DNA of 64,000 nt from Dehalobacter restrictus DSM 9455 (GCF_000512895.1 NZ_CP007033.1:1289001-1353000); one strand, 5' to 3'. Positions 57,812 to 63,104 are shown, counted from the stretch's first letter. Program-made: numbers and translations. The notes: generated by a model from the letters alone, not told the origin.

Positions 57812-57861
57812 TTGAAATACCTTTAGTGTTTATTTATAATGTAAGTAAGTACAGGTACGTA
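57812..57861 (+). promoter_or_regulatory. Promoter and GntR-type operator of the first methyl-transfer unit
   Basis: TTGAAA (57812-57817), 17-nt spacer, TATAAT (57835-57840). Just downstream lies TAAGTACAGGTACGTA (57846-57861), an imperfect palindrome of form TAnGTACNNGTACnTA. The same 16-mer pattern recurs at 59350-59365. A repressor there would block initiation. Confidence 0.75.
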
Positions 57862-57874
57862 AGGAGGGGATACT

Positions 57875-58513
57875 TTGGATTATAAAGTGAGTGAATACGT
57901 AAAGATGCTCGATATTAACAGCGCAAAAGAAGAGGTAGAGAGAATGCTGTCTCAGAAGATTGAGCCCAAGGAAATCCGAAATCAGATATTCTTAGGCCTT
58001 ACAGAAGTCGGGAGAAAGTATGAAAGAGGAGAGTATTTCATCGGGGATCTGATCGTTTCCGGTATGCTCGTCAAAGAAGTCCTGGCACTGGAAGAAATGA
58101 AGGATTCTTCCAGTGCCAATAGTCCTCAAAACAAGGGACGGATCTTAATTGGTACGGTTTGCGATGATATTCATGATATCGGCAAAGATATTATGACGGA
58201 GTTATTGGCTTCCGGGGGCATTGAAGTAATCAACTTGGGGGTGGATGTTCCTCCTCAAAAATTTGTGGAAGGCATACGGAAATATAACCCGGATATTCTG
58301 GGCTTAAGTTGCACCATGACCACCTCAATCAATTATATTTTTAAGACGATTGATGTCATCAAAGATGCAGGGTTAAGAGATAACCTGAAAATAATCATAG
58401 GCGGGACTGCGATCAGTAAAAAATATTCCAACATTAACCTGGCGGACGAAATTGTCAACGATGCGTATAAAGGGCTTAAAATATGCCAGGAATGGGTCGG
58501 GAAAAACAGTTAG
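57875..58513 (+). CDS. Corrinoid (B12-binding) protein 1 of a methyltransferase system
   Basis: The 212-residue protein has an N-terminal helical cap (about 1-85, YERGEYFIGDLIVSGMLVKE) and a Rossmann-like cobalamin domain with the lower-ligand motif DxHxxG (D98, H100, G103 in DDIHDIGKDI) and LSCTMTTS/IIGGTAIS for the nucleotide tail. It accepts a methyl group on cobalt from a substrate-specific methyltransferase. It starts at TTG after AAGGAGGGG. It is an apparent second corrinoid protein, separated from the main genes and next to the regulator. Confidence 0.92.
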   Translation: MDYKVSEYVKMLDINSAKEEVERMLSQKIEPKEIRNQIFLGLTEVGRKYERGEYFIGDLIVSGMLVKEVLALEEMKDSSSANSPQNKGRILIGTVCDDIHDIGKDIMTELLASGGIEVINLGVDVPPQKFVEGIRKYNPDILGLSCTMTTSINYIFKTIDVIKDAGLRDNLKIIIGGTAISKKYSNINLADEIVNDAYKGLKICQEWVGKNS

Positions 58514-58540
58514 CTTTTTCACAGGAAGGATGAATGATCG

Positions 58541-59281
58541 TTGGCTGATATTTTATATTTGGCAGTCGTTGAAGAAATCAAGAAAGCAATAGTTTCCGGG
58601 CATCTTTCTCCTAGGGATATGCTGAAGTCGGAATCGGAAATGATGAAAGAATACGGCGTAAGCAGAATGACCTTACGAAAAAGCTTATCGTTATTATCCA
58701 ATCAGGGCTATATTTATTCCGTTCCAGGTAAAGGCAATTTTGTCAAAAAACCAGATACCGATGTTTATCAATTCCGTTTTAACCGTTACGATAATCTGCT
58801 GTCCAAAGTTGACCGGATCAAACTGTTATCGGTTACAGTGAATACCGCTTCGGATGATGTAATGGATAACCTTTTGCTGCAGGAGAACGGACGGGTGGTG
58901 AGAGTCGAACGATTAGTCTACAGCGATGATCAGCCGGTGGCTCTCGAAGTTGTCAATACCCAATACATACCCAATACTCCAGTGGTTGAGGACAGAATTA
59001 ACTTTGCCAATTATGCATATAACTTGGATAAGAAGCTGGCTTTTGGGGAAGAAACCTTTGGCTTAACTAAAGAGCTGGTTATCAAAGTGGTAAAGGCCGG
59101 TGAAGACATCTGCATGAGACTGAGTATTGCCCCGGGCGAGGATGTATTTGAAATCAGCGAGAGGATCATGAAAAAGGATGACCATTCTCCACTGACTTAC
59201 AGCTTGTTTTATATTCGTAAGGAGTATTTTATGCTTACGGCGAAAACTCCGGAGGAAGATGCAAGTAAAAAAATATTTTGA
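58541..59281 (+). CDS. GntR family regulator with UTRA domain (HutC type)
   Basis: The 246-residue protein has an N-terminal winged helix (MLKSESEMMKEYGVSRMTLR, VPGKGNFV) and a C-terminal UTRA ligand-binding domain (about 90-235; VVRVERLVYSDDQPVALEV). HutC-type regulators use near-palindromic GTAC-like operators, matching the two TAnGTACNNGTACnTA sites in the cluster. A TTG start is used with AGGAAGGA upstream. It lies 27 bp after corrinoid protein 1 and probably represses the cluster until the methyl donor binds. Confidence 0.9.
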   Translation: MADILYLAVVEEIKKAIVSGHLSPRDMLKSESEMMKEYGVSRMTLRKSLSLLSNQGYIYSVPGKGNFVKKPDTDVYQFRFNRYDNLLSKVDRIKLLSVTVNTASDDVMDNLLLQENGRVVRVERLVYSDDQPVALEVVNTQYIPNTPVVEDRINFANYAYNLDKKLAFGEETFGLTKELVIKVVKAGEDICMRLSIAPGEDVFEISERIMKKDDHSPLTYSLFYIRKEYFMLTAKTPEEDASKKIF

Positions 59282-59308
59282 ATTAACAGACAATTATCAT
59301 TTGGCCGA

Positions 59309-59365
59309 TTGACATTCTCAATAACAGGGTATAATATTAAATTAACTAGTACGTACAGGTACATA
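59309..59365 (+). promoter_or_regulatory. Promoter and second GntR-type operator
   Basis: TTGACA (59309-59314), 15-nt spacer, TATAAT (59330-59335), then TACGTACAGGTACATA (59350-59365), sharing GTACAGGTAC with the first operator. The short spacer may need activation or lower basal strength. Confidence 0.72.
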
Positions 59366-59392
59366 TTGAAGTTTTAAAAAGGAGAGCTGAAG

Positions 59393-60001
59393 ATGTTCAC
59401 CAGAATCGTATTTGTGTCTGGTTTTTTGGGTTCAGGAAAGACGACATTTATCGTAAAGCTGGTGGAATCTTTAGCGCAAAGAAATATCAAAGCGGCTCTT
59501 ATCGTCAATGAAGCCGGGGAAATCGGCATCGATAACCAATATATGAAGCAGCTGGGATATAACGTCTGGGAAATCTTCGGCGGGTGTATCTGCTGCACGT
59601 TATCCGTCAGCCTGGAACATACGATTCAGGAGCTGGAAAAGAATTATCATCCGGATGTAATTATCATTGAGCCCAGTGGAGCAGCCAATCCGGAAACCGT
59701 TTACAATTCCCTGATCAGTTTTGGCATCGAGAAAGAGAGAATTGCAAACTTCTTTATTTTGGATCCCACCCGGATTGAGATGTTTTTGGAGATATTAACG
59801 CCACTCCTGATTTCCAGTCTTGAGCTAGCGGATTGTGTACTGATCAATAAAATAGACCTGGCAGACGGGGAGTCCATTGAAAAATGCCGGGAATTGGCCT
59901 TGACCCATGGACCACATTCACCAAACTTCCTGATTGATGCAAGTCAATCCTTGTCGGGGGAATTGTCTGGGTATATTGCGGATCTGATCGTAAAGAGGTG
60001 A
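59393..60001 (+). CDS. Short COG0523 (CobW-like) GTPase
   Basis: The 202-residue G3E GTPase has a P-loop GFLGSGKTT (10-18), the metal motif GGCICC with C65, C67 and C68, Walker B VIIIEPSG and NKID. It ends without the CobW_C domain, which is unusual since most COG0523 proteins are 300-400 residues. These proteins deliver metals such as Zn or Co to enzymes. GGAGAG precedes the ATG. The adjacent His-tailed protein may supply the missing C-terminal part. Confidence 0.88.
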   Translation: MFTRIVFVSGFLGSGKTTFIVKLVESLAQRNIKAALIVNEAGEIGIDNQYMKQLGYNVWEIFGGCICCTLSVSLEHTIQELEKNYHPDVIIIEPSGAANPETVYNSLISFGIEKERIANFFILDPTRIEMFLEILTPLLISSLELADCVLINKIDLADGESIEKCRELALTHGPHSPNFLIDASQSLSGELSGYIADLIVKR

Positions 60002-60005
60002 GTAA

Positions 60006-60461
60006 ATGCATCAAGATCATTTTCATCCGGTTACATTCAGCATCAGACTGATCCTTCAGGATAAAGCATCCGTCAAACGGTGGGCGGATATTGTCAACTA
60101 TTATTTTTCGCAATACTCCAGTGAACTGTGCCAGAGGCCAAAGGTGTATATAGGGCATATTAAAGCAATTTCCATCCTTAATAAAAAAGAGTACATAAAA
60201 TTCAGCAAGTTTAAGTGCGACATACCTGCAGAGGTTGTATCCGTAGGGGAATCATCTTATCACAGCATTCCTCTAATCCTGAATTCGTTGGTCTATGGAG
60301 TTGCGGAGGAAGACGCAGTTCAAGTCTTAAGGCGAGTTTCCAAGAAAATAAAAAAAGAGTTTCTGCTTGAAAGCACATTCAATCTTGAAAAAGCTGCTCA
60401 TGACCATCACGGGCATCATGCACATCACCACGAGGACCCCAACCATAATCATAACCACTGA
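60006..60461 (+). CDS. His-tailed partner of the CobW-like GTPase
   Basis: The 151-residue protein has His residues at the very start (MHQDHFHP) and a C-terminal run of alternating His (DHHGHHAHHHEDPNHNHNH), typical of metal storage or delivery. The middle part, with VASVGES-like PAEVVSVGESSYHS, is not recognised but could be a separated CobW C-terminal domain. It starts 4 bp after the GTPase, so the two very likely act together. Zn2+ for the methyltransferase or Co2+ for corrinoid are candidate metals; this is inference. Confidence 0.75.
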   Translation: MHQDHFHPVTFSIRLILQDKASVKRWADIVNYYFSQYSSELCQRPKVYIGHIKAISILNKKEYIKFSKFKCDIPAEVVSVGESSYHSIPLILNSLVYGVAEEDAVQVLRRVSKKIKKEFLLESTFNLEKAAHDHHGHHAHHHEDPNHNHNH

Positions 60462-60514
60462 GTGGTTATAGATAAAATTTAATAATATTTAAAGGACAAA
60501 GGGGGAAAATTGAC

Positions 60515-61135
60515 GTGAGCAATGTATTGATCCAGATGACTGCAGGCCTGGAAGACGAAAAGGTTATACTTGAGGTACGAAGACAACTTGACGCAGGCAT
60601 TGACCCGGTAGAAATTTTCGGGGCATGCCAGGAAGGTATGGTGGAGATCGGCAAACGGTTCCAGAAGGGGGAATACTTTGTTTCCGACCTGATGATGGCA
60701 GGGGCAATTTTTATGAGCGTCAATGAAATTGTTACTCCTTTTCTCAAAGTGTTAGGAAGCTCCAATGCGGAAAAAGTTGTCATCGGCACAGTTCAGGGGG
60801 ATATTCATAATATCGGCAAGGATCTGGTGGTTGCCATGCTTAAGGCCGGAAACTTTGATGTTGTGGATGTGGGCGTTGATGTAACGCCAGAGGCTTTTGT
60901 CCAGGCTTTGCAGGACAGCGGCGCCAAGGTACTTGGGCTTTCCTGCCTCCTGACCACCGCATACGACTCAGTCAAAGCTACGGTGGCGGCAGTGGAAGCT
61001 GCGGGGCTAAGGGATAAAGTGAAGATCATGATCGGCGGCGGACCGGTTGACCAGGGAGTTGTGGAATTTACAGGAGCGGATGCATTCGGCAAAGATGCCC
61101 AGGATGCGGTAAGAGTATGTAAGGAGTTGATCTGA
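60515..61135 (+). CDS. Corrinoid protein 2, main methyl carrier
   Basis: The 206-residue protein has the cap domain (FQKGEYFVSDLMMAGAIFMS) and a cobalamin domain with D96, H98 and G101 in GDIHNIGKD, and LSCLLTTAYDS and IMIGGGPVD. A GTG start is used with AAAGGGGG upstream. It lies 1 bp before the UroD-family methyltransferase, so this is the likely methyl acceptor of that enzyme. It is about 45% similar in layout to corrinoid protein 1 by eye, not computed. Confidence 0.93.
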   Translation: MSNVLIQMTAGLEDEKVILEVRRQLDAGIDPVEIFGACQEGMVEIGKRFQKGEYFVSDLMMAGAIFMSVNEIVTPFLKVLGSSNAEKVVIGTVQGDIHNIGKDLVVAMLKAGNFDVVDVGVDVTPEAFVQALQDSGAKVLGLSCLLTTAYDSVKATVAAVEAAGLRDKVKIMIGGGPVDQGVVEFTGADAFGKDAQDAVRVCKELI

Positions 61136-61136
61136 T

Positions 61137-62255
61137 ATGAATCCGTTATATCTTGAACGCCTGGAAAAAGCCAAGAAAACCATTGTCTTTGAAAATGATT
61201 CAGTAACCTCTTGTTATATTGGAACGGCAACTCCTCCGGCACACATGGGGATAACCATGGCGGAGTATATAAACGATCAGGAAAAGGGGCTGGACATATT
61301 CATTGACTATGTCAATGAGATTAATGCCACCGCACCTGTTGACTGCCTGAACAGTGGATACATGCCAAAGCCCAACATAGCGCTGGCCACAGCATGGTTT
61401 TCTAAAATAAAGGTACCGGGCAGGGATCTTCCGGAGAATTCCCTCTGGCAAGTCGAAGAAAAAAAGGTAATGCAGGACGCAGATTATGATCTGGTTATTG
61501 AAAAGGGCTACAATGGGCTGTTTGAAAAAATATTTCCTCAAGTGGCTGATATGGCGGAATTTCAGGAATTTATCCGGTATAATCAGGAAAATGGAGCCAA
61601 AGATGCCGGGAAATATATTAATGCCGGTTATCCGGTCATTACCGCTTCCATGATCAGTCCGCCCTTTGAAATGCTTTGTGGCGCCCGCACTATGGGACAG
61701 TTCTATATGGACTGCTATAAAATGCCGGACAAAGTAAAAGCAGCTTTGGACGCTATGCTGCCTGATATTGTAAATTCTGCAGTCGGGATTGCCAAGGCGG
61801 CTCAGGGAGTTGGCACTTGGGTAGGCGGGTGGCGTGGAGCCAGTGCCTTAGTGTCAACAAAAATATGGGAAAAATTAGTATGGCCCTATATATATGATGC
61901 AGCAATAACCTTGGTTGATAATGGGCTAACCCCGATTTTCCATCTCGATCAGAATTGGGATCGGGATATTGAGAGATTTCTGGAAGTGCCGGCCAAAAAG
62001 TGCATCCTGAATACCGATGGCATGACCGATTTAAGAAACGCCAAGAAGAAATTAGGGGATCATATAGCGTTTATGGGAGACGTACCGGCCCAGCTGCTGG
62101 CTACAGGCACTCCGGAACAAGTCAGCGACTATGTGAAGAGACTTCTGGATGATATCGGCACTGAGGGGGTTTTTGTGACTCCAGGATGTGATGCCCCGGC
62201 CAATGCTAAGTTCGAAAATATGGTAGCAATGTTTAAGGCGGCAGCAGAATTTTAA
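61137..62255 (+). CDS. UroD-family methyltransferase I (corrinoid methylating)
   Basis: The 372-residue protein belongs to the uroporphyrinogen decarboxylase/MtaA-CmuA fold. Landmarks are VITASMISPPFEMLCGAR, IFHLDQNWDRD (H269, D271), LNTDGMTDLR, FMGDVPAQLLATGTPE and VTPGCDAPAN (C351). MtaA/MtbA use His-x-Cys with a distal Cys for Zn; here the His-x-Cys reads His-x-Asp, and C351 is kept. It most likely moves a methyl group from an O-, N- or S-methyl substrate to corrinoid protein 2. The substrate is unknown, aromatic O-methyl ethers being one option in this group. Confidence 0.85.
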   Translation: MNPLYLERLEKAKKTIVFENDSVTSCYIGTATPPAHMGITMAEYINDQEKGLDIFIDYVNEINATAPVDCLNSGYMPKPNIALATAWFSKIKVPGRDLPENSLWQVEEKKVMQDADYDLVIEKGYNGLFEKIFPQVADMAEFQEFIRYNQENGAKDAGKYINAGYPVITASMISPPFEMLCGARTMGQFYMDCYKMPDKVKAALDAMLPDIVNSAVGIAKAAQGVGTWVGGWRGASALVSTKIWEKLVWPYIYDAAITLVDNGLTPIFHLDQNWDRDIERFLEVPAKKCILNTDGMTDLRNAKKKLGDHIAFMGDVPAQLLATGTPEQVSDYVKRLLDDIGTEGVFVTPGCDAPANAKFENMVAMFKAAAEF

Positions 62256-62297
62256 TAAAGCGATGAATTCTAATGATTATATAGGGAGTATATTCGC

Positions 62298-63104
62298 ATG
62301 ATATTTATCGGTGAATCAATCAATGGTACAAGAAGCGCAATCAAAAAAGCAGTATTAGAGAGGGATGCCGAATATATTCAGAGGATTGCCATATCCCAGG
62401 CGGAAGCAGGGGCAGATTATCTCGACGTTAATGCCGGGACCGACCCCAATCGGGAGACCGAGGATTTACTCTGGTTGATCGAGACGGTTCAGGCGGTGGT
62501 TGACGTCCCCATCTGCATTGACAGTTCAACAGCGTCAGCCATTAAAGCCGCCATGGGGGTTATCCGCGCAACGCCCATGATCAATTCCATCAATGGCGAC
62601 AGTAAGAGGTTGGAAAGCTTCCTTCCACTAATTAAAGAAAGAAACTGCCCGGTCATCGCACTGGCTATGGATGAGTCCAAATCCGATATGCCTAAGACCG
62701 TGGCAGAGAGAATGGTCGTTCTGGAAAAGATATTTAAGGCAACACGAGAAATGGCGATTCCGGATGAGAAGATTTTTATTGATCCGTTGATTATGGCTGT
62801 AGCCACAGACCAGACGGCAGCCAAGACGGTGTTTGAATGTATCCGGACAATCAAGGCTACCTACCCGGAAGCCCATATCAGCGGAGGGCTCAGCAATGTT
62901 TCTTTCGGGCTGCCCGAACGCGCCTTGATCAACAGGACCTTTTTGACACTGGCCCTGGAAGCCGGAATGGATTCGGCGGTTGTCAATCCGAGTAATGTGC
63001 AGCTGATTGAGTCATTATATGCCACAGAGCTTCTGCTGGGCAGGGACCGTTTCTGCAGAAACTATACGAAAGCCTCAAAAACGAATTTCAGCAGAAAAAA
63101 CTAG
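62298..63104 (+). CDS. Pterin-binding methyltransferase II (AcsE/MtvA-like)
   Basis: The 268-residue DHPS-type TIM barrel matches methyltetrahydrofolate:corrinoid methyltransferases. Residues corresponding to those of AcsE are visible: D75 (CIDSS), N96 (PMINSING), D162 (FIDPL) and N200 (SNVSFGLPERALIN). It would move the methyl group from the corrinoid protein to tetrahydrofolate, giving methyl-THF for the Wood-Ljungdahl pathway. It lies 42 bp after methyltransferase I. No reductive activator (RACo) gene is seen in the window. Confidence 0.92.
   Translation: MIFIGESINGTRSAIKKAVLERDAEYIQRIAISQAEAGADYLDVNAGTDPNRETEDLLWLIETVQAVVDVPICIDSSTASAIKAAMGVIRATPMINSINGDSKRLESFLPLIKERNCPVIALAMDESKSDMPKTVAERMVVLEKIFKATREMAIPDEKIFIDPLIMAVATDQTAAKTVFECIRTIKATYPEAHISGGLSNVSFGLPERALINRTFLTLALEAGMDSAVVNPSNVQLIESLYATELLLGRDRFCRNYTKASKTNFSRKN

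Follow-up and report, generated by a model that had tools for sequence, protein, structure and literature searches.

The O-demethylase systems of acetogens consist of a substrate:corrinoid methyltransferase (MT I), a corrinoid protein, a methyl-corrinoid:tetrahydrofolate methyltransferase (MT II), and an activating enzyme. In the chloromethane (Cdm) system of Acetobacterium dehalogenans, the MT I, CdmB, needs no zinc and no regulator has been identified for cdmBCA; the regulation of the 26 corrinoid methyltransferase systems of this bacterium is largely unexplored (PMC13222342, 2026). COG0523 GTPases of subfamily 13 have already been linked to neighbouring corrinoid methyltransferases (PMC2770081), and copies of RdhUVWX have been reported elsewhere in the genome of Dehalobacter restrictus (PMC9888536), a bacterium for which no growth on methylated compounds is known (PMC3910700).

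We analysed a 64-kb window of DNA, positions 1,289,001-1,353,000 of the single-contig, 2,943,336-bp D. restrictus genome. A first-pass annotation had described a seven-gene run at 57812-63104 as a self-contained methyl-transfer module with its own regulator and metal-handling pair. ORF calling recovered all seven ORFs in that order, intact, complete, and co-directional, and the description of the module stood; operator-like sites and natural fusions of the metal-handling pair were added to its evidence. The features are as follows.

57812..57840, + strand: promoter P1 of corA-gntR, TTGAAA-17-TATAAT, 11 of 12 consensus positions
57849..57858, + strand: putative GntR operator 1, GTACAGGTAC, just 3' of the P1 -10 box; homologous genes preceded by related sites
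57875..58513, + strand: corA, corrinoid protein of the regulator-linked (R) group, B12-binding cap and B12-binding domain; DxHDxGK intact (Pfam)
58541..59281, + strand: gntR, GntR/UTRA (HutC-type) regulator (Pfam/NCBIfam), directly 3' of CorA-type genes in 35 loci
59309..59338, + strand: promoter P2 of cobW-his-corB-MT1-MT2, TTGACA ... TATAAT region; similar sequence upstream of the relatives' cobW
59353..59362, + strand: putative GntR operator 2, GTACAGGTAC, just 3' of the P2 -10 box; related sites upstream of homologous genes
59393..60001, + strand: cobW, short COG0523/CobW G3E GTPase without CobW_C; GFLGSGKT P-loop, GGCICC metal motif
60006..60461, + strand: His-tailed protein, ferredoxin-like domain and His-rich tail; AF2 pLDDT 86.6, COG0523 fusions in three genomes
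60515..61135, + strand: corB, corrinoid protein, predicted catalytic methyl carrier (Pfam, tree label, adjoins MT I)
61137..62255, + strand: MT I, UroD-fold predicted substrate:corrinoid methyltransferase; H269-x-D271 ... C351 invariant
62298..63104, + strand: MT II, MeTr/AcsE-like methyl-corrinoid:tetrahydrofolate methyltransferase; NF005719 327.9 bits, cut-off 259

The families of six of the seven proteins were confirmed with Pfam and NCBIfam, whereas the His-tailed protein had no family match in either. The regulator matched PF00392 (57.7 bits) and PF07702 (49.3 bits), both above the cut-off. CorA and CorB have the same two-domain make-up and both carry the DxHxxG cobalamin motif; an in-frame TGA that had raised selenocysteine in the corrinoid proteins during the genome search is an ordinary stop near the C-terminus. 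With MT II well above its cut-off as the pterin-binding component of a three-component system, the catalytic core is, as predicted from its families, a standard system of UroD-type MT I, corrinoid protein, and methyl-THF MT II. The corrinoid-activating enzyme RACo is encoded elsewhere in the genome, at ~153 kb (PF14574, 249 bits). The RACo gene at 153-156 kb is directly followed by a second GntR/UTRA gene, ~31-33% identical to the module's GntR, which ties this regulator family to corrinoid activation too.

Promoters and the corrinoid protein-GntR pair

Position 57812, given as the start of the module, is the first base of the near-consensus -35/-10 pair of P1. The near-palindrome GTACNNGTAC occurs twice in the window (57849 and 59353) against 0.12 copies expected, and lies here behind the -10 box of exactly two promoters, P1 of corA and P2 of cobW. 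The genome holds 18 copies in total; of the others, those examined are within ORFs, form part of a hairpin, or have no such promoter before them. Furthermore, among 26 homologous corA or cobW genes, 21 had a related site upstream, compared with 1.9% of random stretches, and two of the five upstream regions without a site (L012 and L014) belong to clusters in which no corA-gntR pair was seen. GTACNNGTAC is therefore a likely, putative GntR operator, and the natural reading is that GntR would repress both P1 and P2.

The corA gene lies directly upstream of gntR, and corB lies beside the gene for MT I. The first-pass annotation had taken CorA for a second carrier and had considered its presence unusual. 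We compared corrinoid proteins from about 60 loci across Bacillota, labelled by the neighbouring gene. GntR was the next gene downstream of the corrinoid protein in 35 loci, a count that is not an unbiased frequency because the loci were gathered by similarity to CorA and many are from related taxa. The gap between the two genes was 30 bp or less in 32 of the 33 loci with a measured gap, and in 19 of these the genes overlap. The linkage of a corrinoid protein to a GntR gene thus recurs in Bacillota and is not unusual. On the tree, the label "upstream of GntR" changed three times, against 29.0 changes expected by shuffling. When the 35 GntR-linked corrinoid proteins were constrained to one clade, the likelihood was better than that of the free tree search (p-AU 0.73); the constraint is not rejected, which allows a single origin, short of proof. 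In 24 loci, the distances among CorA-type proteins tracked those of GntR (r 0.93, partial r 0.63), whereas the partial correlation with the carrier was 0.07 once GntR was accounted for. CorA-type proteins retain the cobalamin motif and depart from the carriers at other conserved positions; the one after the GG turn, for example, is Pro in 49 of 55 carriers and mostly His, Ala, or Val in CorA-type proteins.

Alternatively, CorA could be a true second methyl carrier in two parallel methyl routes, for two substrates or for catabolism and biosynthesis, with GntR an ordinary small-molecule repressor that merely shares the operon. CorA could still carry methyl groups, since every residue needed for cobalamin binding is retained in the alignment; it shares both domains with CorB, and the cluster of some relatives contains several paralogues of MT I. 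However, in those relatives (L010 and L011) MT I was duplicated together with CorB while CorA stayed single, and the CorA-type lineage is tied to GntR, whose distances it follows, and not to an MT I. We consider the two-route explanation unlikely, though quite conceivable. The role of carrier is a possible one for CorA, yet not the simplest reading, and it is probably wrong because the CorA lineage tracks the regulator and not the carrier.

Hence we propose that CorA and GntR form a regulatory corrinoid protein-GntR pair, in which CorA would probably help to sense the substrate rather than carry methyl groups. The UTRA domain alone could sense a small molecule, which counts against a sensor role for CorA. 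A literature search that covered few subscription papers returned no description of such a pair. More broadly, the pair may represent an unnamed, widespread regulatory family of Bacillota, in which free-standing corrinoid proteins evolved from methyl carriers, became translationally coupled to GntR/UTRA repressors, and use the methylation or redox state of cobalt to sense whether methyl donors are available, switching the adjoining methyltransferase operons; this generalization is plausible, and we place it somewhat short of probable.

Conservation and spread of the module

Relatives were found by an MT I scan of a collection of species genomes followed by gene calling. The order corA-gntR-cobW-his-corB-MT I-MT II was present in Geosporobacter ferrireducens, a Eubacteriaceae MAG (L019), Acetobacterium fimetarium, and A. 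tundrae; variants with extra copies were found in Alkalibacter and another Eubacteriaceae MAG, and in four loci (L015, L016, L017, and L020) the corA-gntR pair is placed behind MT II. The cluster is also present in a second Dehalobacter genome (G001, L102), where MT I is 64% identical and the location is another one, next to a transposase-like fragment. The search for the same order in related genomes, which the first-pass annotation had put forward as a check, was thus successful in Geosporobacter, Eubacteriaceae, Acetobacterium, and a second Dehalobacter, and the gene order is not due to chance because it is kept in other bacteria.

Several relatives differ in their surroundings. In Alkalibacter mobilis (L014, 2180-5978), a DAPG-hydrolase-family protein, a sodium symporter, and another UroD methyltransferase adjoin the module, which hints at phenolic substrates. 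A gene for a DUF2284 predicted metal-binding protein lies 3' of MT II or gntR in five loci (L015, L016, L020, L021, and L023) and is absent from the window. The other Dehalobacter genome also has a divergent second module at ~2,040-2,047 kb (L109), with a corrinoid protein, two GntR genes, MT II, a corrinoid protein, MT I, COG0523, a Cys/His-rich 171-aa protein, and DUF1638.

The closest kin of the module lie outside the family of Dehalobacter, which suggests horizontal spread. Base composition did not single out a recent transfer: the GC content of the module (0.443) matches that of its surroundings (window, 0.451), so the case for transfer is one of similarity and position only. The module could also be a relic, or an idle acquisition that is silent in D. 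restrictus. The host grows by organohalide respiration only (PMC3910700), two of the five Dehalobacter genomes tested carry the module, at different sites, and MT I is 80% identical to that of Geosporobacter ferrireducens, a member of another family, against 64% to that of the other Dehalobacter. Against this, none of the seven ORFs, two promoters, and two operator-like sites shows damage, and the GC content does not set the module apart; we regard silence as distinctly unlikely. Since growth of D. restrictus on methyl compounds is not known, the module may be idle or may have a part in carbon assimilation.

Methyltransferase I and the split COG0523 pair

MT I matched PF01208 with 61 bits. Its AF2 model (pLDDT 91.9) has a UroD fold, with Z 26.9 to UroD and, to the methanogen methyltransferase 4ay7, Z 26.6 and an rmsd of 3.0 over 323 residues. 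H269-x-D271 and C351 are common to all 16 MT I homologues. In an alignment with a second UroD-family protein encoded by D. restrictus, the H-x-D motif falls opposite an H-x-C motif, and we take the H-x-D motif to correspond to the zinc ligands of S-methyltransferases. Amines are handled by the MttB and MtmB families; an amine, which the first-pass annotation had allowed as a substrate, is therefore unlikely because MT I is of the UroD type. His-Cys-Cys ligands have been associated with S-methyl donors, and replacement of a Cys by a carboxylate with O-methyl donors (PMC10418091). The His-x-Asp...Cys triad in place of His-Cys-Cys leads to a tentative assignment, in which MT I may bind zinc and, more weakly, could use an O-methyl donor; a methyl ether is a possible substrate. 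No paper assigning the gene set to a substrate was found in the literature search.

The idea of a chloromethane-type, haloalkane-dehalogenating system like Cdm would match the organohalide-respiring host, and CdmB is the only solved protein clearly matched by the MT I sequence, but it is very improbable: MT I and CdmB share about 27% identity, CdmB needs no zinc (PMC13222342) and at the aligned positions has none of the three triad residues of MT I, a different gene, at 2.035 Mb, is the one in this genome that best matches CdmB, and the relatives of the module are mostly acetogen-type anaerobes. For the same reason of best match, MT I is probably not the cdm-like "Clade III" Dehalobacter protein of PMC13222342. 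That best match is the 2,035-kb UroD protein, within a region (2,034-2,089 kb; L159 and L160) that holds three sets of corrinoid protein and UroD, with a further set near 2,045 kb. The zinc-type triad is absent from the UroD proteins at L159 and L160, and the three sets are probably the RdhUVX copies of PMC9888536.

The COG0523 GTPase matched PF02492 with 125 bits and has its CxCC motif as GGCICC. CobW_C (PF07683) had no match anywhere in the D. restrictus genome, nor in the His-tailed protein even at E 10, and this absence of a sequence match speaks against the His-tailed protein as a true CobW_C domain. The confident AF2 model of the His-tailed protein (pLDDT 86.6, above 90 in most of the core) shows a ferredoxin-like domain and a disordered His-rich tail. 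COG0523 YjiA was among the weak Foldseek matches (E about 0.01), while a second structure aligner returned common ferredoxin-like folds only; the fold search alone was not decisive. Relatives of the His-tailed protein were found by profile search in 10 of 398 Bacillota genomes. Those of the split form that were examined directly adjoin a short COG0523 GTPase, and in three loci (L191-L193) the domain is fused to the C-terminus of COG0523. These natural fusions suggest that the pair is best read as one metallochaperone split in two, with the His-tailed domain replacing CobW_C. The fused proteins have GGCICYQ instead of GGCICC and a different gene setting. Of the split pairs in other places, five have a corrinoid protein gene as a neighbour or close by, and two of the five (L198 and L199) share an operon with methyltransferases of the MtmB and UroD types; MtaB had been the first guess for the neighbour in L198, L199, and L204, and Pfam identified MtmB in L198 and L199. 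The pair would offer a tractable two-piece metallochaperone, whose likely client is the zinc-type UroD methyltransferase.

Proposed mechanism and comparison with known systems

We envisage a substrate-inducible corrinoid demethylase operon with a split metallochaperone and CorA-GntR signalling. MT I, with its zinc-type UroD fold, would methylate Co(I) of CorB, the most likely donor being an O-methyl compound; MT II would hand the methyl group of CorB to tetrahydrofolate and thus to the Wood-Ljungdahl pathway; and RACo would re-activate CorB. The COG0523 GTPase and the His-tailed protein would load the metal site of MT I, presumably with zinc. The GntR/UTRA protein would repress the two promoters by binding GTACNNGTAC just 3' of each -10 box, and CorA, made from the same message as GntR and not the carrier of the main flux, would report methyl-donor or corrinoid status to GntR. 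Our confidence in this model as a whole, in which we infer zinc, the O-methyl substrate, repression, and CorA-GntR signalling, is evenly balanced. The proposed CorA-GntR pair bears on the question of how anaerobes select among their dozens of corrinoid methyltransferase systems, and with its defined candidate operator it provides a concrete, testable hypothesis on the regulation of these systems.

For the proposed pair, AerR, a separate B12-binding protein that modulates CrtJ, is a precedent (PMC5362033, PMC6199135), and CarH offers a similar likeness in that a B12-binding protein modulates a transcription factor. Here the regulator is of the GntR/UTRA family, the setting is anaerobic methyl metabolism and not light, and the CorA-GntR interaction is one that we infer. 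COG0523 subfamily 13 shares the position of a COG0523 GTPase beside corrinoid methyltransferase genes (PMC2770081), whereas the present locus has a separate 202-aa GTPase and a 151-aa His-tailed protein without a recognisable CobW_C. RdhUVWX is likewise a set of corrinoid protein, UroD, and MeTr in organohalide respirers (PMC9888536); however, the metal triad is missing from the UroD proteins encoded there, no GntR or COG0523 gene lies alongside, and the sets are tied to reductive dehalogenase clusters. Type 1 mlp clusters combine two or more Mlps with a Ram protein and His-Cys-Cys ligands, and have no THF methylase in their vicinity (PMC10418091); the present cluster, with one UroD protein, an MT II, no Ram, and His-Asp-Cys, does not belong to them. 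The Cdm system has in common the trio of MT I, carrier, and MT II and the UroD fold (PMC13222342), and differs in a CdmB of about 27% identity without zinc or the His/Asp/Cys triad. The acetogen O-demethylase systems (Odm/Vdm/Mtv), likened here by description, share a UroD-family MT I, one corrinoid carrier, and a pterin-binding MT II; in D. restrictus the activating enzyme lies outside the cluster, and a regulator-corrinoid dyad and a split chaperone are added.
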